NCBI RefSeq assembly: GCF_004283755.1
Contig: NZ_SHMH01000003.1
Coordinates: forward strand, 124,001-188,000
DNA length: 64,000 nucleotides
Direction: 5' to 3'
DNA from: Pseudoxanthomonas winnipegensis
GTDB lineage: Bacteria > Pseudomonadota > Gammaproteobacteria > Xanthomonadales > Xanthomonadaceae
Numbering within the stretch: the stretch's first letter is position 1; every line of letters begins with the position of its first letter. Made by a program: the position numbers and the translations under genes. Below are positions 43,725 to 56,449 of this stretch, in pieces. Below the pieces are notes generated by a model. That model was not told the origin of the DNA and did not search any database. It saw only the letters and a list, made by a program, of their open reading frames with translations.

Positions 43725-44213
43725 ATGCCCTATACCCCGATCACCGGCACGCTCGGCTACGTGCTTTCGCCCGACGGCACGCAGGTACTGATGATCCACC
43801 GCAACGCGCGGCCCGAGGACGAACACCTGGGCAAGTACAACGGGCTGGGCGGCAAGCTGGAGAACGACGAGGACATCGCCGCCGGCATGGTGCGCGAGAT
43901 CGCCGAGGAGGCCGGCATCGAATGCACGGCGATGGAGCTGCGCGGCACCATCAGCTGGCCCGGCTTCGGCCGCAATGGCGAGGACTGGCTGTGCTTCATC
44001 TTCCTCATCACCGCCTGGACCGGTACACCGCTGACCTCCAACCCGGAGGGCACGCTGGAGTGGGCGCCGATCGAGCGCCTGGGCGAGCTGCCCATGTGGG
44101 AGGGCGACCGCCACTTCCTGCCGCTGGTGTTCGATGGCGATCCGAGGCCGTTCCACGGTGTGATGCCGTATCGCAACGGGCGCATGGTGTCGTGGAGCTT
44201 TAGCCGCTTCTGA
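43725..44213 (+). CDS. Nudix hydrolase, MutT/8-oxo-dGTP type
   Basis: A 162-residue Nudix hydrolase. The Nudix box is complete: G-KLEND-E-DIAAGMV-REIAEEAGI, giving the metal-binding Glu residues. The N-terminal TLGYVLSPDGTQVLMIHRN and the GKYNGLGGKLE segment match the 8-oxo-dGTPase/MTH1-like group, so a nucleotide-sanitation role is likely but not proven. The ATG is at 43725, with TACAAT at 43693-43698 as a possible -10. It lies between the sensor kinase and the LuxR-type regulator. Confidence 0.85.
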   Translation: MPYTPITGTLGYVLSPDGTQVLMIHRNARPEDEHLGKYNGLGGKLENDEDIAAGMVREIAEEAGIECTAMELRGTISWPGFGRNGEDWLCFIFLITAWTGTPLTSNPEGTLEWAPIERLGELPMWEGDRHFLPLVFDGDPRPFHGVMPYRNGRMVSWSFSRF

Positions 44214-44300
44214 AGCGGGTGGTGCGCCCGGCGGCGAAGGTGGTTGAGCGTCGTGCTAGCGGCTGAGGGGGGCTCTTTGTGGGGAAGTCACAAGCAAAGG

Positions 44301-44346
44301 CACCCCCTCCCAGCCTCACCCTTCGCAGCGCGAAAGGGGAGGGGCC
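44301..44346. repeat. Single REP unit
   Basis: CCCCCTCCC, a short CCCTTCG-CAG-CGCGAAAGGG hairpin and GGAGGGG: the same unit as in the doublets, here alone between two convergent genes. Confidence 0.65.
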
Positions 44347-44410
44347 GTATTCCGCCTTCGTGGAGGCGGCGGTGTGATCAGCTCGGTCGGCGGCGCTTGG
44401 CTGGCGCCGC

Positions 44411-45186: not shown

Positions 45187-47031
45187 ATGCATGGAACCCG
45201 ATCCGCCAGCCGCCTGTCGGCATTGCTCTTATCCGGCGCGCTTGCCGCGTGCGCTACGCCGCAGGCCCGCCCGCACGCGGAGGCCGGCGTGACCGGCGCC
45301 CCGCAGGTCACGGTGCACCGCGACGGCGATGATCTGCTGACCGCCGGCCTCGGGCTGGCCGGGCTGCAGGCTCCGACGCCGCCGGCCTTCGCCAGGCCCG
45401 ACGCGCCCACGCCGGCCGAACTGCGCAGGCGTGCGATCTGGTCCAACTGGCGCGGCATCGCCGATCTCTCGCCCACCGGCGGCTACGGCACGCTCTACGG
45501 CAGCGTGGCGCGCGTGCCGGGCCGCGAGTACGCCGCGCTGGCCACGGTGCCCGGCGCGCGCCAACCGCATCGCGTGCTGGTCCAGGTACCCGACGCTTTC
45601 GATCAGCGGCGGCGCTGCGTGGTGGTGGCGCCGTCGTCGGGCTCGCGCGGGGTATATGGCGCCATCGCCGTGGGCGGCGCCTGGGCACTGCCGCGCGGCT
45701 GCGCGGTGGCCTATACGGACAAGGGCACCGGTACCGACTATTTCGACCTGGATGCGGGCCGCGGCTTTGCGCTGGACGGCAGCTCGGCCGCGCCGGGCGA
45801 ACAGGCGTTGGCCTTCGCTCCCCAGCCCGCGGCCGGGGCGGGCGGCGTGGCGTTCAAGCACGCGCATTCGCAGGACAACCCGGAAGCCGACTGGGGCCGG
45901 CACGTGCAGCAGGCCGCGCGCTTCGCGCTGCAGGCGCTGGATGCGGCCTTCCCGCAGGCCGCGCCGTTCACTGCGGACAATACGCGTGTGATCGCGGTCG
46001 GCATCTCCAACGGCGGCGGCGCGGTGCTGCGCGCGGCCGAGCTGGACGACGCGCTCATCGATGCCGTCGTCGCCGGCGAACCCAACGTCTACGTCGAAGG
46101 CGCACCCGGCGCGCGTGCGCTGTACGACTTCGCCAGCGAGGCGGCGCTGCTGATGCCTTGCGCCTTGCTCGACCTGCCGCCGGCGGCGCTGCCGCAGCCG
46201 CCGCTGCGCGCCCAGGTCGAACCGCTGTGGACCGCGCGCTGCGCCGCGCTCCAGGCGCAGGGGCTGGTCGAGGGCGCGACGCCTGCGGCGCAGGCCGCCT
46301 CGGCGCACGCGCAGCTGCGGGCCAGTGGCTGGAGCGAAGCGGCGTTGGCCTCCGGCGCGGCCAGCGTGGGTTTCGACCTGTGGCGCGCGATCCTGGCGAC
46401 CTACGCCTCGGCCTACGGCCGCTATGCGCCGGGCGAGCACCCGTGCGGCTATCGCTGGTCGGCGCAGAACGCGGACCTCTCCCCGCGCGCGGCCACGGCC
46501 GTCGAACGCGCGGCGTGGTGGTCCGACGCCAGCGGCATCCCGCCCGGCAACGGCGTGGGCCTGATCGATGCCAGGCTGGCCGCGCCCGACCCGACGCTGC
46601 CGGGGCTGCTCTGCCTGCGCGCGCTGTGGGACGGGCACGGCCGGGACGCCCAACGCGTGCGCGCGGGCATCGCGGGCACCCATGCCGGACTGCCGCGGGC
46701 CGGGCTGCCGGTGCTGGTGGTGCACGGCACCGACGACGGCCTGATCCCGCCGGCGTTCACCAGCGCGCCCTATGTCGCCGCCGCACGCGCGGCCGGCCGG
46801 CCGGTGCGCTACTGGCAGGTGCGCAACGGCGAGCACTTCGACGCCTTCCTCGCCCTGCCGGCGTACGGCGCGCGCTACACGCCGATGCTGCCGCACGTCT
46901 ATGCCGCACTGGATCGCGTGGCCGATGTGCTCGACGGCAAGGCCGCGCCGCCGGCCGATGCGACGATCGAGGCGCGCGGCCGCGGCACCGGTGCGGTGGA
47001 GGCCGCGCAGTTCGGCGTGGCGGTGAAGTAA
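45187..47031 (+). CDS. D-(-)-3-hydroxybutyrate oligomer hydrolase
   Basis: A 614-residue alpha/beta hydrolase of the 3HB-oligomer hydrolase family, which splits short 3-hydroxybutyrate oligomers left by PHB depolymerases. The nucleophile Ser274 lies in GISNGGG. A later HGTDDGLIPP (Asp) and NGEHFDAFL (His) complete a likely triad. The N-terminus is a lipoprotein signal (SGALAAC), so it probably sits on a membrane facing the periplasm, unlike the cytosolic forms. The ATG is at 45187. It lies near the GntP permease and 3.3 kb before phaE-phaC. Confidence 0.85.
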   Translation: MHGTRSASRLSALLLSGALAACATPQARPHAEAGVTGAPQVTVHRDGDDLLTAGLGLAGLQAPTPPAFARPDAPTPAELRRRAIWSNWRGIADLSPTGGYGTLYGSVARVPGREYAALATVPGARQPHRVLVQVPDAFDQRRRCVVVAPSSGSRGVYGAIAVGGAWALPRGCAVAYTDKGTGTDYFDLDAGRGFALDGSSAAPGEQALAFAPQPAAGAGGVAFKHAHSQDNPEADWGRHVQQAARFALQALDAAFPQAAPFTADNTRVIAVGISNGGGAVLRAAELDDALIDAVVAGEPNVYVEGAPGARALYDFASEAALLMPCALLDLPPAALPQPPLRAQVEPLWTARCAALQAQGLVEGATPAAQAASAHAQLRASGWSEAALASGAASVGFDLWRAILATYASAYGRYAPGEHPCGYRWSAQNADLSPRAATAVERAAWWSDASGIPPGNGVGLIDARLAAPDPTLPGLLCLRALWDGHGRDAQRVRAGIAGTHAGLPRAGLPVLVVHGTDDGLIPPAFTSAPYVAAARAAGRPVRYWQVRNGEHFDAFLALPAYGARYTPMLPHVYAALDRVADVLDGKAAPPADATIEARGRGTGAVEAAQFGVAVK

Positions 47032-47227: not shown

Positions 47228-47530
47228 TGCCGTGGAACCGTGCCGTTGGCGGCCGATGCGACCTGCGCGGTTCTCCACAGCCGGTGTGGATGAGTGCTGG
47301 GGCAAGCATGTGGATAAGCCGCGCGCGCCCAGTCGTGGCAAGGCGGCGCGCGAAGATGGCGAAAAAATGACCAGCGCGCGGCAGTTCATCCACAGGGCCT
47401 GTGGATGGAAGCTGGACAAGGATGTGGATAAGCGCGTGAGCGCGTTGCGGGGCGGGCGTGTCAAGTGGATTGGCACAAAAATGACCAGGCCGCATCGCGC
47501 CGCATGACGCGCTGCGTGGAACCTTGCGAG
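47228..47530 (+). repeat. DnaA-box repeat, copy 1
   Basis: A 300-base direct repeat whose partner is at 49268-49571. The 219-base core 47271-47489 aligns with the partner without gaps. GTGGAACCG-type flanks on both sides are shared too. It carries two exact DnaA boxes TGTGGATAA (47309-47317, 47423-47431) and four near matches (TTCTCCACA 47271, TGTGGATGA 47285, TCATCCACA 47386, TGTGGATGG 47400). It lies between convergent genes. Confidence 0.85.
47271..47431. promoter_or_regulatory. Cluster of six DnaA-box-like 9-mers
   Basis: Two consensus boxes and four with one or two changes from TTATCCACA stand within 161 bases in both orientations. No AT-rich unwinding element and no dnaA/dnaN genes are nearby, so a titration or regulatory site is more likely than an origin. 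Confidence 0.6.
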
Positions 47531-47533
47531 GCT

Positions 47534-48769
47534 TCAATCCGCCGCGCGCAGCGCGATCACCGCATTGAGTCCGCCGAAGGCGAAGGAGTTGCTCAGCACC
47601 GCGCGCACCGGGCGGGCACGCGCCTGGTTGGGCACGTAGTCCAGGTCGCATTCCGGATCGGGATCGAGGAAGTTGGCGGTCGGCGGCACCACCTGCTCGC
47701 GCAGCGCGCCGATCGCGGCCACCAGTTCCAGCGCACCGGCCGCGCCGAGCGCGTGGCCGTGCACGGCCTTGGTCGAGCTCACCGCCAGCGCCTCGGCGTG
47801 CGCGCCGAACACCTGCCGCAGCGCGCGGGTCTCGCAGCGGTCGTTGGCCTGGGTGCCGGTGCCGTGGGCGTTGACGTAGTCGATCCGTTCCGGCGAAAGG
47901 CCGGCGTCCTGCAGCGCCAGGCGCATGGCCGCGGCCGCACCGTCGATGCTGGGCGCGACGATGTCGCCGGCGTCGGCGCTCATGCCGAATCCGGCCAGCT
48001 CGGCCAGCGGTCGCGCGCCGCGGGCGGCGGCGTGTTCGGCGCTTTCCAGCACGAACAGCCCGGCGCCTTCGCCCAGCACCAGGCCGCTGCGCTGCGCGCA
48101 GAACGGCCGGCAGGTGTCGTCGCTGACCACGCGCATCGCCTCCCAGGCGCGGATCAGGGCCAGGCTCAGGCAGGCCTCGCTGCCGCCGGCGATGGCCACC
48201 TCGGCCAGGCCGTGGCGCACCATCAGCGCGGCCTGGGCCAGCGCGTGATTGGCCGAGGCGCAGGCGCTGGAGACGGCGAAGGCCGGCCCGCGCAGGCCGA
48301 AGGCGATGCTGATCTGGCTGGCCGCGGCGTTGTTCATGCTGCGCACGATGGTCAGCGGGTGCAGGCGCTCGGCCTGATCGCGGTAGAGCCGGCGCGACTG
48401 CTCGTCGCGGCTGAGCTCGGCGCCCACGCCGGTGCCGACCACCACCGCGCAGCGCGCGCCGAGCGCGGACTCTGCACTCAGGCCGGCCTGGGTCATCGCC
48501 TCCTGGGCGGCGACCAGCGCCATCTGGGTCATGCGGTCGAGCTGGCCGGGGGCGATGCCGCCGGTCTGCGTCGCGTCCGGGGCGAACCCGGGCAAGGTCG
48601 CCGCCATCCGCATCTTCAGCGTGCTGTGCGGATCGGGCGAGGCCAGGGGCGCGATGCCGCTGCGACCGTCGCGCATCGCGCTCCACAGCGCCGGCGCGCC
48701 CAGGCCGAGCGCGCTGACCGCGCCCATGCCGGTGATCACCACGCGCCGCGCCCGCACGGAGGCGTCCAT
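47534..48769 (-). CDS. Beta-ketoacyl-[acyl-carrier-protein] synthase (FabF/NodE-like)
   Basis: A 411-residue condensing enzyme of the thiolase fold that extends acyl chains on ACP. The active-site Cys is in SSACASANHAL, and the two catalytic His residues are in VNAHGTGTQAND and KAVHGHALGAAGALE; the C-terminal SNSFAFGGLNAVI is typical. The gene is six bases after a dedicated acyl carrier protein gene and not in a fab cluster. This is the NodF/NodE-like layout used for special acyl chains, so the product may be a modified fatty acid. The pair is flanked on both sides by the DnaA-box repeats. Confidence 0.9.
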   Translation of the reverse strand: MDASVRARRVVITGMGAVSALGLGAPALWSAMRDGRSGIAPLASPDPHSTLKMRMAATLPGFAPDATQTGGIAPGQLDRMTQMALVAAQEAMTQAGLSAESALGARCAVVVGTGVGAELSRDEQSRRLYRDQAERLHPLTIVRSMNNAAASQISIAFGLRGPAFAVSSACASANHALAQAALMVRHGLAEVAIAGGSEACLSLALIRAWEAMRVVSDDTCRPFCAQRSGLVLGEGAGLFVLESAEHAAARGARPLAELAGFGMSADAGDIVAPSIDGAAAAMRLALQDAGLSPERIDYVNAHGTGTQANDRCETRALRQVFGAHAEALAVSSTKAVHGHALGAAGALELVAAIGALREQVVPPTANFLDPDPECDLDYVPNQARARPVRAVLSNSFAFGGLNAVIALRAAD

Positions 48770-48775
48770 GGCGCG

Positions 48776-49048
48776 TCAGTGCGCCGGCTGCGCTGCGGTG
48801 GCCGCCTTGGTCGCCAGCGCGTCCTCGACGGCCAGGACCAGCTTGCCGAGCGAGCCGTCGTCCAGCTTCGGATCGCGCTGCGGGAAGGTGATGTCGAAGT
48901 GCTCTTCGATGTCGAACAGGATCTCGATGGCCTCGAGCGAATCCACGCCCAGCTCCTGCAGCTTGGTGTCCGCGGTCAAGGTGGCGGGGTCGATCTCGGC
49001 GTGCTGGGCGACGATGGTCTGGATCTGCGATTCGATGGACGGGGTCAT
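48776..49048 (-). CDS. Acyl carrier protein
   Basis: A 90-residue ACP. The phosphopantetheine attachment site is the Ser of GVDSLEAIEILFDIEEHFDI, and the acidic helix II that docks partner enzymes is conserved. The C-terminus is longer and Ala-rich (DALATKAATAAQPAH), unlike housekeeping AcpP. I chose the ATG at 49048 (MTPSIESQIQTIV). With the downstream ketoacyl synthase it forms a two-gene unit. Confidence 0.9.
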   Translation of the reverse strand: MTPSIESQIQTIVAQHAEIDPATLTADTKLQELGVDSLEAIEILFDIEEHFDITFPQRDPKLDDGSLGKLVLAVEDALATKAATAAQPAH

Positions 49049-49267
49049 GGCAGTGCTCCGCGAATGAGAGGCCACCGCACGGCACCGGCCGCCGGTGGAG
49101 CGCACGCTGCGGCCTCGGCCGCAGCAGCCAGGCGCCACGCTAGACCGCCAATCTTCCAGAGGCCTTTCGTCAAGCCGGTCCAGGCGCGAACCTTCAGCGG
49201 CGGTCCAGCGCCCGCTGAGCGCGGGTGTCCCGTCCCGTCTGTTGGCGCCGAGCCGGGCCCGGTTGGC

Positions 49268-49571
49268 TGCCGTGGAACCGCGCCCGCCGGTGAGTCGTGC
49301 CGCCGCCGCAGTTCTCCACAGCCGGTGTGGATGAGTGCTGGGGCAAGCATGTGGATAAGCCGTGCGCGCCCAGCAACGGCGCGGCCTGCGCCGAAGATGG
49401 CGAAAAAGTGACCGGCGCGCGGCCGTTCATCCACAGGGGCTGTGGATGGCGCGCCGACAAAGGTGTGGATAAGCGCGTGAGCGCGTTGCAGGGCAGGCGT
49501 GTCAAGCGAATTGGCACAAAAATGACCAGGCGGAATCGCGGCGCGTCGGGCCTGCGCGTGGAACATCGCGG
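49268..49571 (+). repeat. DnaA-box repeat, copy 2
   Basis: Second copy, same orientation, between the divergent acp and pssA genes. Boxes: TTCTCCACA 49312, TGTGGATGA 49326, TGTGGATAA 49350, TCATCCACA 49427, TGTGGATGG 49441, TGTGGATAA 49464. By hand alignment the 219-base core differs from copy 1 at 29 positions, none within the six 9-mers. Confidence 0.85.
49312..49472. promoter_or_regulatory. Second cluster of six DnaA-box-like 9-mers
   Basis: Same order, spacing and orientation as in copy 1. Because it is upstream of both acp (minus) and pssA (plus), DnaA bound here could affect either promoter. Confidence 0.6.
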
Positions 49572-49702: not shown

Positions 49703-50323
49703 ATGTCACGACCCCGCCATTTCTCGATGCTGCGCGACTTCCAGCTGGCCGACTGGTTCACCCTGGGCAACGCCTTCTGCGGCAGCGGCGCGGTATTCGC
49801 CGCGCTGCACTACATGCAGCAGGGCCGGGTGGGGGTGCTGCTGGCCGGCATGGCGCTGATCCCGCTGGCCTTCATCTTCGACGCGCTGGACGGCCGGGTG
49901 GCGCGCTGGCGCAAGTCGGCCTCCACCCTGGGGCGCGAGCTGGATTCGCTGGCCGACGTGATCTCCTTCGGCGTGGCGCCGGCGGCGCTGGCCTACGCCT
50001 GCGGCCTGCAGGGCGGCTGGGACTGGCTGATCCTGAGCTACTTCGTGTGCTGCGGCGTCAGCCGACTGGCGCGCTACAACGTCACCGCCGAGGCGCTCTC
50101 GGGCGATGAGGGCAAGGTGACCTACTTCGAGGGCACGCCCATCCCGACCAGCCTGGCGCTGGTGGTGCTGCTGGCGGTGGCGGCGGTGCAGGGCCGCCTC
50201 GGCGCGCAGGTGTGGTGGGGCCAGTGGCAGCTGGGGCCGTGGCAGCTGCATCCGCTGGTGCTGCTGTTCGCGCTGTCCGGCTCACTGATGATCAGCAAGA
50301 CACTGCATATTCCCAAGCCGTAG
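49703..50323 (+). CDS. pssA: CDP-diacylglycerol-serine O-phosphatidyltransferase
   Basis: PssA makes phosphatidylserine, precursor of phosphatidylethanolamine, in the inner membrane. The 206-residue polytopic protein has the CDP-alcohol phosphotransferase motif D-G-x2-A-R-x8-G-x3-D-x3-D as DGRVARWRKSASTLGRELDSLAD. VISFGVAPAALAYA follows, as in type II PssA. The ATG at 49703 gives MSRPRHFSMLRDF. The weaker alternative is phosphatidylglycerophosphate synthase, but the VISFGVAP stretch favours PssA. Confidence 0.85.
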   Translation: MSRPRHFSMLRDFQLADWFTLGNAFCGSGAVFAALHYMQQGRVGVLLAGMALIPLAFIFDALDGRVARWRKSASTLGRELDSLADVISFGVAPAALAYACGLQGGWDWLILSYFVCCGVSRLARYNVTAEALSGDEGKVTYFEGTPIPTSLALVVLLAVAAVQGRLGAQVWWGQWQLGPWQLHPLVLLFALSGSLMISKTLHIPKP

Positions 50324-50373: not shown

Positions 50374-51555
50374 ATGTCGGGTGCACAAGGCGGGTGGGGC
50401 GAAGGGGCGGACGCGATGGCGCGCCAGGTCTGGGAGACCTGGGGCGAGGCGCTGCGCAAGTTCGCCTCGGTGCCGCTGGAGACCGCCGCGCCGGCCTGGC
50501 AGCAGGTGCCTGGCGGCTGGCCGGGCTGGACGCCGCCCAAGGGCGGGGCGCCGGGCGATGTGATGGAGCGCTTCGACGGGCTGGCCCGGCACTGGTTCGG
50601 GCGCATGCAGCACGTGGCCGCCCAGTTCGCCGACCGCGACAACACCCCGGCCGACATCGTCGCCGCCTGGCGCCAGGCGCTGGGCGCGACCGAGGCCAAT
50701 CCATATCCGGAGCTGTTCGGCAGCCTGTTCGGTCAGGCCACCGGGCTGGACGATCTGGGCGAGCAGTGGCTGCCCTGGCTGGAATCGCTGCGCGGGCCGC
50801 TGGAGGAATGGTCCAGGACGCCGGCCTTCGGCCCGGCGCGCGAGCACCAGCAGCGCTGGAAGGGCCTGTTGCAGGCCCAGCATGCGCTACGCGAGGCCGC
50901 CGAGGCCTACCGCACCCTGCTGGAGGATGCCTCGCGCCAGGCCTATGCGCTGTTCGAGGAGAAGTTGAACCAGCGGGCGGGCGAGGGCAGTGCGCTGGAC
51001 AGCGCGCGGGCCCTGTTCGACGAGTGGATCGACGCGGCCGAGGATGCCTACGCGCGCATGGCGCTGTCCGAGGAGTTCAGCGAGGTCTACGGCGCGCTGG
51101 CCAACGCGCAGATGCGCATGCGCGCCGGCGTGCAGCGCGAGGTCGAGCAGCTCGGCAGCCTGCTGGGTCTGCCCACGCGCACCGAGGTCGACGCCGCGCA
51201 CCGCAAGATCGCCGAACTCGAGCGCATCCTGCGCCGCATGATGCGCGGCCAGGCCGCCGAGCGGCCCGCGCCGCGTCCCGCAGCCGCGCCTGAAACGCCT
51301 CGCCAGGCTCCGTCGCCAGCGCGACAGGCGAAGGCGTGGAAGAAGACCGCCACCTCGAAGCCTTCCGCGGCGTCGAAGTCGTCGACGAAGAAGTCGGCCA
51401 AGACCGCAGCGAAGAAGATCGGCGAGAAGCCGACGGCGAAGAAGGCAGCAGCGAAGAAAGCCACAGCGAAGAAGGCCGGCCGCACCAACGCGCCCAGCAA
51501 GCCCGTCTCGAAGACCTCCGCCAAGCGCACCACGCGTGGCAAGGCGCCGGCATGA
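50374..51555 (+). CDS. phaE: Class III PHA synthase subunit PhaE
   Basis: PhaE is the partner subunit required by class III PHA synthases. The 393-residue product has a helical core rich in Trp and charged residues (WLPWLESLRGPLEEW, RAGVQREVEQLGSLLGLPTRTEVDAAHRKIAELE), the last part being the PhaE/phasin-like C-terminal signature. From about residue 290 it continues as a Lys/Ala/Pro tail of the histone H1/AlgP kind (repeats of KKAAAKKATAKK type). The ATG at 50374 has GGGAG upstream. It overlaps phaC by four bases. Confidence 0.88.
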   Translation: MSGAQGGWGEGADAMARQVWETWGEALRKFASVPLETAAPAWQQVPGGWPGWTPPKGGAPGDVMERFDGLARHWFGRMQHVAAQFADRDNTPADIVAAWRQALGATEANPYPELFGSLFGQATGLDDLGEQWLPWLESLRGPLEEWSRTPAFGPAREHQQRWKGLLQAQHALREAAEAYRTLLEDASRQAYALFEEKLNQRAGEGSALDSARALFDEWIDAAEDAYARMALSEEFSEVYGALANAQMRMRAGVQREVEQLGSLLGLPTRTEVDAAHRKIAELERILRRMMRGQAAERPAPRPAAAPETPRQAPSPARQAKAWKKTATSKPSAASKSSTKKSAKTAAKKIGEKPTAKKAAAKKATAKKAGRTNAPSKPVSKTSAKRTTRGKAPA

Positions 51556-52619
51556 GCAGCAGCCCGTTCCGCGCCACCGCCGATGCGCTGGCCGCCGAAG
51601 CGATCGCCCTGCAGGAGAAGCTGGGCGCCGGCCTGCGCACGCTGCCCGAGGTCGGCGATGTGCATTACGGCGTGACCCCGCGCGAGGAAGTCTGGCGCGA
51701 TGGCAAGGTGGTGCTGTATCGCTTCATCGGCTACACCGCGCCCACCGCCAAGGTGCCGCTGCTCATCACCTATGCGCTGGTCAACCGGCCCTACATGGTC
51801 GACCTGCAGGAGGACCGTTCGCTGGTCCGTGGCCTGCTGGCGCAGGGCCAGGACGTCTACCTGATCGACTGGGGTTATCCGGATCGCTCGGACCGTTTCG
51901 CGCTGCTGGACGATTACGTCAACCGCTACATCGACGGCGCCGTCGACCATCTGCGCCAGACCAGCGGCGAGGACGCGATCAACGTGCTCGGCATCTGCCA
52001 GGGCGGCGCGCTCTCGCTGTGCCATGCCGCGCTGCATCCGGCCAAGCTGCGCAACCTGATCACGATGGTCACCCCGGTGGACTTCCACACGCCGGACAAC
52101 ATGCTGTCCAACTGGATCCGCATGGTCGATGTGGATCTGCTGGTGGACACGCTGGGAAACGTGCCGGCCGACCTGATGAATCTGAGCTACCTGATGCTCA
52201 AGCCGTTCCGCCTGAACGTGCAGAAGTATGTCGGCCTGCTCGACATCCTCGACGACCGGCGCGCGGTGCAGGACTTCCTGCGCATGGAGAAGTGGATCTT
52301 CGACTCGCCCGACCAGGTGGGCGAGGCCTTCCGCCAGTTCGCCAAGCAGTTCTACCAGGCCAACGGCTTCGTCGAAGGCGGCATCGCCCTGGACGGCGAA
52401 GCGGTGGACCTGTCGCACCTGCAGATGCCGATCCTCAACATCTACGCCGAGCAGGATCATCTGGTGCCCCCGGATGCCTCCAAGGCGCTGCGCGGGCTGG
52501 TCGGCAGCCAGGACTATTCCGAACTGAGCTTCCGCGGCGGCCATATCGGCATCTACGTCTCCAGCCGCGCCCAGCGCGAAGTCCCCAGCGCCATCGCAGG
52601 CTGGCTGTCGGCGCGCTGA
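51552..52619 (+). CDS. phaC: Class III PHA synthase subunit PhaC
   Basis: PhaC polymerises 3-hydroxyacyl-CoA into polyhydroxyalkanoate granules. The 355-residue length is that of class III enzymes. The lipase-like box is GICQGG with catalytic Cys149; Asp of EQDHLVPP and His of FRGGHIGIY complete the triad. Class III synthases prefer short-chain substrates, so PHB is the likely polymer. The start overlaps phaE (ATGA). Confidence 0.94.
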
Positions 52620-52701
52620 TCGGTCTGCCAGACCCGCTGTTTGGCGACTCGGTCCAAGCGCCACCAACCGCCCCGCCAAACTGACCGTTTCCCCATGATC
52701 C

Positions 52702-52928
52702 GCCCCCTGCCTTGCGCGCAGCGCAGGGGAGGGCCGGGGAGGGGTGCTCTTCGCGGCGAACTAAAGACAAGCGAATGCCAACGGCAACAGCGAGCCCTAG
52801 CAGCAAGGGCGGCAGCAACAGCTGACAGCGACAGCAAGAGCTAACAGCAACAGCAAAAGCCGACCCCTCCCCCTCAGTCGCTAGCCGCGACTTCGAGCTC
52901 CCCTGCGCTGCGCGCAAGGGAGGGGGCA
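52702..52928. repeat. REP doublet (REPIN-like), copy 3
   Basis: The left unit (52702-52746) and the inverted right unit (about 52862-52928) have the same CTTGCGCGCAGCGCA core as the copy at 31294. The 115-base centre contains imperfect CAACAGC/AACAGCAA-type repeats and no gene. Confidence 0.7.
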
Positions 52929-52960
52929 GATCACTTGGGCTGACGCTTCCTGCGATCCCG

Positions 52961-53057
52961 AATCCCGAATCCCGAATCCCAATCCCCAATCCCCAATCCC
53001 CAATCCCCAATCCCCAATCCCCAATCCCCAATCCCCAATCCCCAATCCCCAATCCCC
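52961..53057. repeat. Heptamer array AATCCCG/AATCCCC
   Basis: Two AATCCCG units, one shortened AATCCC unit and eleven exact AATCCCC units in tandem. The minus strand reads GGGGATT repeated, with G4 runs that could form a quadruplex. Similar G-rich heptamer arrays are known to be enriched in Xanthomonas genomes. It lies 65 bases before a pspC-like gene. Confidence 0.92.
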
Positions 53058-53122
53058 AACCCGCCCTTGACCCACACACCGCTAGACTCCCCACCATCCA
53101 CCGCCGCTCGCAGAGTGCCGCC

Positions 53123-54782: not shown

Positions 54783-55808
54783 TCAGCGAGTCGGGGTCAC
54801 CTTGGACCCCCTGCGCTTGCGCACGTAGGTCTCGGTCATCACGACCGATGAGTGCCCCAGCTGCTCCTGCGCCTTCCGGATATCGCCGGCCGACTCGGTC
54901 TTGTCCGTGCCCGCCTTGGCGCGCAAATCCCGGAACTGAATTCCCTCGACCTTTGCCAGCGCGCAGGCCTTTGCCCAGCGCCTGGACATCGCGTTGACGC
55001 CCACGGTCCGCCCCTTCTCGTTCACGATGAGGCGGGTGCTGTAGACCGTGAAGGCCTTCTTCCGCGCCCTGATCCTCTCCAGGAGCGCCTCCAGGCTTCC
55101 CGACAGCTCCACCCGCAGCTTATTGCCGGTCTTGCGCTGCATGAAGTGGATCGCCCCGTCTCGGATGTCGGTTTCTGATACCCCGAGCACGTCAGCCGGC
55201 CGCTGACCGGTCAGGTAGGCCAGGTCCATCGCGTCGCGCAGGCAGTCGTCGGCCGCCGCCCAGATGGCTTCGTATTGGCTGTCCTCGATGTAGGCGTCCC
55301 GACCGGTCTCCCGGAACCCCTTGATGCCCGCGCACGGATTGGGCAGCGCGGTGTAGCCGCGGTCGCGCGCGAAATTCCAGATGTGCGACAGCAGGGCCTT
55401 CTCGCGGTTGGCGCGGACGAATGCCTTACCGCCGGCGGTGCGCCAGGTGAGGTAGCCGCGCACGTTCACAGGCTGGATCGCATCCAGTGGGGCGGGCGGG
55501 TCGTTGAAGTACTCCTTGAGCTTCAGCACCTCCTTGCGGTTGTCCTCGAACGTGCGCGCGGCCTTCGTGGGGGCTACCGAGCTCATGTATTGGTCGCAGA
55601 CCCAGGAGAACATGATCTGCGCGGACGCCGGCGATCGTGCGTCCCGCTGGAGCACAGCCCACTTCTGGATGGCTAGGCCGTAATCGGAGCCGAGCGGCTC
55701 TTCTCGCCGCGGCGTGCCGCCGTGGTCGTAGAAGTAGTAGATCTTCTTCCCGCGCAGCCGGGCCCTGAAGTGCGGGATCGCGCCGGGTTTGGAGGGCTTG
55801 CGTCCCAT
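54783..55808 (-). CDS. int: Phage-type tyrosine recombinase (integrase)
   Basis: A 341-residue integrase that would recombine the att sites. Core catalytic residues are visible: Arg in LTGQRPADVL, Lys in RKTGNKLRVEL, Arg in FRDLRAKAGTD (box II), and the nucleophilic Tyr in HSSVVMTETYVRKR. Box II begins with Arg where many family members have His. The N-terminal arm- and core-binding region (WVCDQYMSSVAPTKAARTFEDNRKEV) is intact. I chose the ATG at 55808 (MGRKPSKPGAIPHF), which overlaps the stop of the preceding small gene; the frame stays open upstream by chance. Confidence 0.92.
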   Translation of the reverse strand: MGRKPSKPGAIPHFRARLRGKKIYYFYDHGGTPRREEPLGSDYGLAIQKWAVLQRDARSPASAQIMFSWVCDQYMSSVAPTKAARTFEDNRKEVLKLKEYFNDPPAPLDAIQPVNVRGYLTWRTAGGKAFVRANREKALLSHIWNFARDRGYTALPNPCAGIKGFRETGRDAYIEDSQYEAIWAAADDCLRDAMDLAYLTGQRPADVLGVSETDIRDGAIHFMQRKTGNKLRVELSGSLEALLERIRARKKAFTVYSTRLIVNEKGRTVGVNAMSRRWAKACALAKVEGIQFRDLRAKAGTDKTESAGDIRKAQEQLGHSSVVMTETYVRKRRGSKVTPTR

Positions 55809-56123
55809 CAGGCGGCCTTGTTGGACTTCCAGGTGCCAGGAGCGACCGCCTCGGGCGCCGGCGTTCCCTCGATGGTGGCGCGGGTGACGACGGGCCGGCC
55901 GTGCAGGTCGATGTAGTGGCGGATGCCGTTCTTCAGCAGGCGCGTGGCCGCGCCGGATCGCCCGAGAGCGCTCCTGCACCTGGCCGACGATCTCGTTCCC
56001 CTCGCGGCCCAGGCGCTGCGCAGCGCGGATCTCTCGCAGCGCCTGGGCGTCACTGAAACCTGCGGAGCGCGCCGCCGCACGGGCGCTCTGGAAAGGACGC
56101 AGGGTGAGGATCTGGGCGCTCAT
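55808..56123 (-). pseudogene. DUF4224-like small gene, probably frameshifted
   Basis: The 3' part reads LLKNGIRHYIDLHGRPVVTRATIEG and ends WKSNKAA with TGA overlapping the integrase ATG, the usual arrangement of DUF4224 genes before phage integrases. No good start exists in that frame. A convincing start (ATG 56123, MSAQILTLRPFQSARAAAR) lies in another frame, and the two could join near 55965 by a one-base shift around SRA/RSG. It may instead be two overlapping genes. Confidence 0.4.
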
Positions 56124-56449
56124 GGCGCACCGCCTACACGGGCCAGGGCGGCATAGAGCCGGCGCACCGTTTCCTGCTCGGTCGGACCCGCTTTGGACTG
56201 GAGAATGGCAGCAGCATCCCGAGAGGCGGCAACCAGGACCTGCAGGTCGGCGCAAGCGTCGGCAACAGCCAAAGCGCGCTCATCGTCCCCCCGGCATTCG
56301 CTGCTCCGGTATCCGTCACCCTCGGCCGCAGTGGCCGGGGGTGAGCGACAGAGCGCATTGACCGCAGCTGCGCGTGGCCACGGAATCGTTCGCGATAGGA
56401 ATGGCCGGCGCACGCTGATGGGGCAAGCGGCGGGACTCACGGACGGCAA
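56120..56449 (-). CDS. Small phage-type protein of unknown function
   Basis: Up to 109 residues. The reliable part is the C-terminal 55 residues, helical and Ala-rich (LAVADACADLQVLVAASRDAAAILQSKAG, ETVRRLYAALARV). The start is unclear because the N-terminal half is low-complexity. The stop overlaps the next reading frame (ATGA), which suggests a reverse operon leading to the integrase. Confidence 0.4.
   Translation of the reverse strand: MPSVSPAACPISVRRPFLSRTIPWPRAAAVNALCRSPPATAAEGDGYRSSECRGDDERALAVADACADLQVLVAASRDAAAILQSKAGPTEQETVRRLYAALARVGGAP

Follow-up and report, generated by a model that had tools for sequence, protein, structure and literature searches.

The window, the whole 64-kb stretch of Pseudoxanthomonas winnipegensis DNA analysed here, carries two repeats in direct orientation, 2 kb apart, with a β-ketoacyl synthase gene and an acyl carrier protein (ACP) gene between them and a pssA-like gene to their right (Table 1). 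The initial annotation had described the repeats, 47271-47489 and 49312-49530, as aligning without gaps and differing at 29 of 219 positions, and our recount gives the same figure. Outside the 219-bp block, identity between the copies collapses. Exact DnaA boxes (TTATCCACA on the - strand) start at 47309, 47423, 49350, and 49464, the last two belonging to copy 2, which is copy 1 displaced by 2041 bp. Boxes with one mismatch (47271, 47285, and 47386) and a box with two mismatches by an eye count (47400) have their counterparts in copy 2 at the same displacement, and the rest of the window contains no exact box and a single one-mismatch box (61452). Searching the whole genome (4.49 Mb in 19 contigs, with dnaA on a different contig from the repeats) with a 247-bp query returned only these two copies, the next match being 33 bases long (E = 0.003), and the strict unit pattern has no other match in this genome. 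A coding explanation was rejected, since the open reading frames that cross the repeats are mechanical read-throughs.

Table 1. Coordinates of the genes, repeat units, and other features of the window
Feature	Position	Strand	Remarks
NUDIX gene	43725..44213	+	Neighbour of the site in many relatives; here no box in 44214-44410
Polyhydroxyalkanoate-type genes	45187-47031 and 50374-52619		3HB-oligomer hydrolase, PhaE subunit, and alpha/beta-hydrolase in PhaC position; beside the element in several relatives
Copy 1, unit 1 (38-type)	47271..47372	+	Box I 47271-47279 (+), box II 47285-47293 (-), degenerate box 47297-47305 (-), strong box 47309-47317 (-), TGGCGAAAAAATGACC 47357-47372
Copy 1, unit 2 (37-type)	47386..47486	+	Box I 47386-47394 (+), box II 47400-47408 (-), degenerate box 47411-47419 (-), strong box 47423-47431 (-), TGTCAAG 47459-47465, TGGCACAAAAATGACC 47471-47486
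β-ketoacyl synthase gene	47534..48769	-	Between the copies; PF00109, PF02801; probably incidental
Acyl carrier protein gene	48776..49048	-	Between the copies; PF00550; probably incidental
Copy 2, unit 1	49312..49413	+	Boxes at 49312, 49326, 49338 (degenerate), and 49350; TGGCGAAAAAGTGACC 49398-49413; equals copy 1, unit 1 at +2041
Copy 2, unit 2	49427..49527	+	Boxes at 49427, 49441, 49452 (degenerate), and 49464; TGTCAAG 49500-49506; TGGCACAAAAATGACC 49512-49527
CDP-alcohol phosphatidyltransferase (pssA-like) gene	49703..50323	+	Right-hand neighbour in several relatives; start codon chosen by us
Inverted repeat	52696-52731 / 52898-52933		36 bases, 94% complementary, arms 166 bases apart
Array of CCCAATC-like units	52943-53075		7-base unit in 14-base steps, about 130 bases
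Phage-type integrase gene	54783-56255	-	PF00589

Box conservation and neighbouring genes

The claim that all six DnaA-box-like 9-mers are unchanged between the copies is borne out: none of the 54 box positions differs, against 29 of the 165 others, where 7.15 differences would be expected in the boxes by chance (hypergeometric p = 1.4e-4). Whether the boxes change as fast as other positions in relatives was asked of four relatives picked by DNA similarity and not by box pattern, and the boxes stayed conserved. Compared with copy 1, copy 2 and the four relatives differ at 0-3 of 54 box positions and at 29-50 of 165 others; across the six sequences, 51/54 box positions and 90/165 other positions are invariant. 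Conservation is not confined to the boxes, as ATGGCGAAAAA, GGCGTGTCAAG, and AAAAATGACC, among others, are also invariant in the six sequences.

The initial annotation had further suggested that the repeats could link lipid synthesis to replication control. The relatives do not support this, for the element adjoins various genes in them, and a ketoacyl synthase gene lies near it in just one of 29 loci found by similarity (genome G017); in the same set, 18 loci have a NUDIX gene nearby, 15 a LuxR-type gene, and 4 a pssA-like gene. In one Xanthomonas-type genome (G177), the five sites have prephenate dehydrogenase/ABC transporter, NUDIX, threonine synthase, LigT-like, and catalase genes nearby, and a site of G299 is near a DnaJ gene. 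NUDIX and pssA genes stand beside the unit in G177 (locus L335), as does pssA in a Stenotrophomonas-type genome (G241, locus L341). Since the neighbours vary between sites, the locus appears to be an old DnaA site at which the ketoacyl synthase and ACP genes are incidental.

In G017 (locus L270), where the element is present once, it stands between NUDIX and ketoacyl synthase, with ACP and PssA following. Between this locus and the window, the PssA-like protein is 100% identical, the NUDIX protein 99%, the ketoacyl synthase 91%, and the ACP 79%, so that the pair between the repeats diverges more than its neighbours. Presumably, the locus acquired the gene pair and the element came to flank it through duplication, both copies having been kept in our genome.

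Anatomy of the unit

Each repeat consists of two tandem units, 115 bp apart and about 101 bp each. A unit begins with box I on the + strand at 0, followed head-to-head, with a 5-bp gap, by box II on the - strand at +14. A degenerate box at +25/26 and a strong box at +37/38 follow, both on the - strand, and TGGC(G/A)...TGACC stands at +85/86. In copy 1, the degenerate box reads TTGTCCAGC or TTGCCCCAG on the - strand. The first unit of copy 1 is one of 19 distinct 38-type units, and its boxes are identical in copy 2 and in G017; the offsets of the second unit are those of the 37-type consensus (206 distinct units; 96 non-redundant ones in the profile described below).

Altogether, the collected loci gave 238 distinct units, in which the gap between box II and the strong box is 17 (206 units), 18 (19), 16 (6), or 6 (7). 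Since a gap of 16-19 had been a criterion in choosing many of these loci, the fair test of the gap lies in searches that allow 6-24. With that range, the matches listed in 42 genomes, each already known to match, are all at 17 or 18. In the gap-freed family search, the matches listed are likewise at 17 or 18, except for two of gap 6 in genus g55; the other five gap-6 units come from metagenome contigs with strings of boxes. In the 29 loci, which were not selected by box pattern, box pairs within 70 bp occur only at offsets 14, 37/38, and 23/24. The A at +33, which the search left unconstrained, is kept in 95 of the 96 non-redundant units.

Some further features of the units may be recorded here. 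A weakly conserved inverted repeat, CCTTG-N5-CAAGG, occupies +57 to +71 of 37-type units, between the boxes and the +85 motif. In genus g55 (loci L243 and L244, match at 1501), a third box follows the head-to-head boxes at +26, the spacing known from E. coli. A contig of Dyella silvatica (L201, 1351-2105) has five tandem units, 161-184 bp apart. In multi-unit loci, unit-to-unit distances cluster near 115, 126, 137, 148, and 160, that is, in steps of about one helical turn, a pattern noted post hoc. The best period, 11.35 for distances below 180, was matched by 0 of 1000 random sets; over all distances, R at 10.5 is 0.20, which 15 per cent of random sets matched. Helical phasing was set aside as evidence, because the period was chosen after the fact and the ancestry is shared.

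The extent of the unit was taken from a profile of 246 37-type units, of which the 96 below 75 per cent identity were kept. Averaged over ten-base steps, information is 0.05-0.12 bit as far as -20, 0.10 and then 0.24 bit over the twenty bases that precede box I, and 0.30-1.46 bit from 0 to +99, a range partly fixed by the search pattern. Within it, +50 to +99 lies outside the pattern and has 0.33-0.47 bit; the value is 0.17 bit at +100 to +109 and 0.06-0.12 beyond. Conservation thus begins at 0, ends at about +101, and drops close to background on either side, which gives the element a definite length of about 101 bp.

The motif at +85 was looked for in 377 genomes drawn evenly from the class, as TCCACNNNNNNTGTGGAT, 50-80 free bases, and TGGCG. 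There are 40 matches in 33 genomes, with the gap at 63-65 in 24/40; outside family f1, probably the Lysobacteraceae, it is 63 or 64 in 18/31 matches, these being 2 of the 31 allowed lengths. By eye, a box-like 9-mer at +26, as in E. coli, and a TGGCGA...T(T)GA-like stretch from +85 can be made out in several of the matches. A similar free-distance search in 60 f1 genomes without the strict unit matched in 40, the gap being 64-66 in 75/84 rows (3 of 31 lengths), and many of these matches also show, by eye, a box-like 9-mer at +26. Therefore, part of the apparent absence, as in genus g33, reflects a change in box spelling and not loss of the element; in the other 20 of the 60, neither the strict nor the free-distance pattern matched. 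An exact TGGCG at 84-86 is found in only 28 of the 96 non-redundant 37-type units, with a mean of 0.37 per offset elsewhere.

Could the +85 motif be a Fis site? A Fis homologue is encoded in 36/36 genomes tested, our own included (G000:C19:58200-58478). A Fis-like 15-mer with its fourth base left free falls at +86 in 99, at +85 in 14, and at +87 in 1 of the 206 37-type units, the next-ranked offset having 0. Among the 96 non-redundant units, this relaxed pattern fits 31 and the published consensus GnnYAnnnnnTRnnC only 13, for which reason a strict Fis reading was rejected and kept as a mere possibility. E. coli DARS1, by eye, also fits the published consensus poorly. As for IHF, its consensus (at most 1 mismatch) occurs in 9/96 units and at no fixed place, so no recurrent site was found, and near the window copies the search gave one match with 2 mismatches, overlapping a box.

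Distribution and chromosomal position

The strict unit matches in 30 of 61 relatives, and the unit with its gap freed in 118 of 296 family genomes, in 16 of 46 genera. Named records with the unit, among the matches listed, belong to Xanthomonas, Stenotrophomonas, Luteimonas, Dyella, Luteibacter, and Frateuria. Reversed-pattern controls gave 0 matches in the sets of 61, 296, and 42 genomes, 1 in 377, and 1 in 60. Matches outside Lysobacterales (among those listed, Acinetobacter, Bifidobacterium, and metagenome bins of several phyla) were taken as chance or as oriC; those inspected show either a 16-base gap or boxes in strings.

Positions were read in 23 single-contig genomes of 7 genera, chosen as closed, that have units, dnaA, and a dif-like site. 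The latter was present in 23 of 25 candidates (G066 and G310 were dropped for want of one), and of two dif-like matches in G014 we took the one that showed fewer mismatches. Units within 10 kb on one strand were merged into one site, and exact genome lengths were used. Each of the 68 sites is nearer the terminus than the origin along its replichore (the lowest at 0.512, four at 0.51-0.52), and 77 of 83 units point with the fork, although these counts represent far fewer than 68 independent events, since the sites are shared by descent. Six units run against the fork: one at the second site in each of three Pseudoxanthomonas and two g29 genomes, and one in G299, at a single site there. Given that our genome has no strict-unit match besides the repeats, we speculate that its second copy might take the place of the second site found in other species.

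In the five single-contig genomes of the class-wide search, the match is at 0.28-0.47 of the genome from dnaA in three and near the origin in two (G431, 0.04; G428, 0.06). An oriC reading was rejected, as the dnaA regions of our genome (G000) and of G013, G014, and G006 hold 3-4 boxes (at most 1 mismatch) and no unit.

Reading of the repeats and comparison with E. coli sites

DARS were worked out in E. coli. We propose that each repeat is probably a pair of tandem units of a multiplied DARS1 variant and, as far as sequence can tell, a set of putative DnaA-reactivating sites. The geometry of boxes I and II and the flank are those of DARS1, and the position of the third box is changed; hence, we speak of a variant.

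The main rival is a pure titration site, at which the boxes would hold DnaA and lower its free level with the bound nucleotide unaffected. The two exact and four near boxes in each 160-bp copy would suit it, the tandem multiplication seen in Dyella silvatica fits a dose effect, and titration on the E. coli chromosome has been argued for (PMC12371093). On the other hand, titration needs no fixed 101-bp architecture, head-to-head pair, or TGGCG at +85, all of which are rigid here, and the same source has boxes enriched around the origin, whereas in the genomes tested the sites are terminus-proximal. We consider titration unlikely.

The initial annotation had placed the cluster with those outside oriC, naming both datA and DARS. 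Box geometry and flank speak for the DARS kind, while a datA-like role, in which the site would promote hydrolysis of ATP on DnaA, fits poorly and is in our judgement very improbable. It is true that a box cluster lies outside oriC and that several boxes share one orientation. However, datA requires an IHF site (PMC10380432), and none recurs in the 96 units; datA is origin-proximal in E. coli (PMC8682772), far from where the relatives' 68 sites lie.

That DnaA bound at the repeats controls transcription of the flanking genes would be suggested by copy 2, which is flanked by the starts of the ACP gene and of pssA, but copy 1 lies between convergent 3′ ends, and the neighbours differ from site to site. 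Moreover, of the 18 of 29 loci with a recognised neighbour on both sides (some about 1 kb off; the other 11 are without one), 14 are convergent and 4 tandem, and we give this explanation very little credence. Least credible of all, a secondary origin or a mobile or repeat-type element with boxes by chance could be imagined from two direct copies 2 kb apart, but the genome has just these two, the NUDIX/pssA position recurs in other genera, and the internal spacing is conserved.

If the repeats are DARS1 variants, the following course of events may be envisaged. DnaA would bind boxes I and II head-to-head, and further DnaA on the same-strand boxes at +25/26 (degenerate) and +37/38 (strong) would stabilise the complex. 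The flank to +101, with TGGC(G/A)...TGACC at +85, might serve as a regulatory half, perhaps by binding Fis. Together, boxes and flank would strip ADP from ADP-DnaA, which would then reload ATP. With sites in the terminus-proximal half, ATP-DnaA would be raised late in the replication cycle.

It is tempting to go further, in a proposal so tentative that we would sooner doubt it than hold it. DARS1 may be the E. coli copy of an old 101-bp gammaproteobacterial module whose second conserved half, TGGCGA-W5-TGACC at +85, has gone unnoticed and would work from a set position on the helix with respect to the head-to-head DnaA pair. Lysobacterales would have multiplied the module into several late-replicating sites, often tandem and directed with the fork, and passage of the fork through the later chromosome would double the recharging capacity, thus timing the next initiation. 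A literature search on DARS2, DnaA box, and Xanthomonas found no paper, and no title on DARS in xanthomonads was among the matches listed. The conservation of DARS2 has been followed among relatives of E. coli out to Vibrio and Shewanella (PMC4245941, PMC8682772), and one sentence of PMC10380432 states that DARS-like sequences are conserved in many proteobacteria. If the units are DARS, recharging of DnaA would be a wide feature of Gammaproteobacteria, the DARS1 flank would gain a sequence signature to test, and the order of Xanthomonas and Stenotrophomonas would gain a defined replication-timing element.

How do the repeats compare with the sites known from E. coli? With datA, they share a cluster of DnaA boxes away from oriC; apart from the absence of a recurrent IHF site and, in relatives, the terminus-proximal position, the head-to-head pair distinguishes them. 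DARS1 and DARS2, whose sequences we took from the K-12 record, both have box I (+), box II (-) at +14, with the same 5-bp gap as here, and the next box (-) at +26. Their equal box spacing, with box I opposed to II and III, is described in PMC5742627, and the head-to-head pair is said to be prominent at, and functionally essential for, DARS (PMC5742627, PMC10380432). DARS2 has the same three-box core spacing as DARS1 and differs from the units here in its need for IHF and Fis sites over 455 bp (PMC8682772), with no recurrent IHF site in the units, and in having no TGGCG at +85.

The repeats depart from DARS1 as follows. E. coli has a single unit, as against two tandem units in each copy here; its box III is at +26, in contrast to a strong box at +37/38 with a degenerate one at +25/26; and it has TTGGCGTTAAAGACGG in place of the TGACC end. 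By the oriC and dif coordinates of E. coli, DARS1 is at 0.66 of its replichore and runs with the fork; the distal half and the with-fork direction are common to it and the relatives' sites. DARS2, at 0.41 and against the fork by the same coordinates, indicates that position is not a fixed trait of DARS.

DARS1 (bioD-uvrB) is 101 bp long, with a flank of about 50 bp that enhances ADP dissociation in vitro and whose in vivo role is called undetermined in PMC5742627, and its TGGCG occupies +85 to +89. Like the units described here, DARS1 combines box I (+) and, at +14, box II (-) with a further box on the - strand, a flank of about 50 bp after the core, TGGCG at +85, and a total length of about 101 bp.
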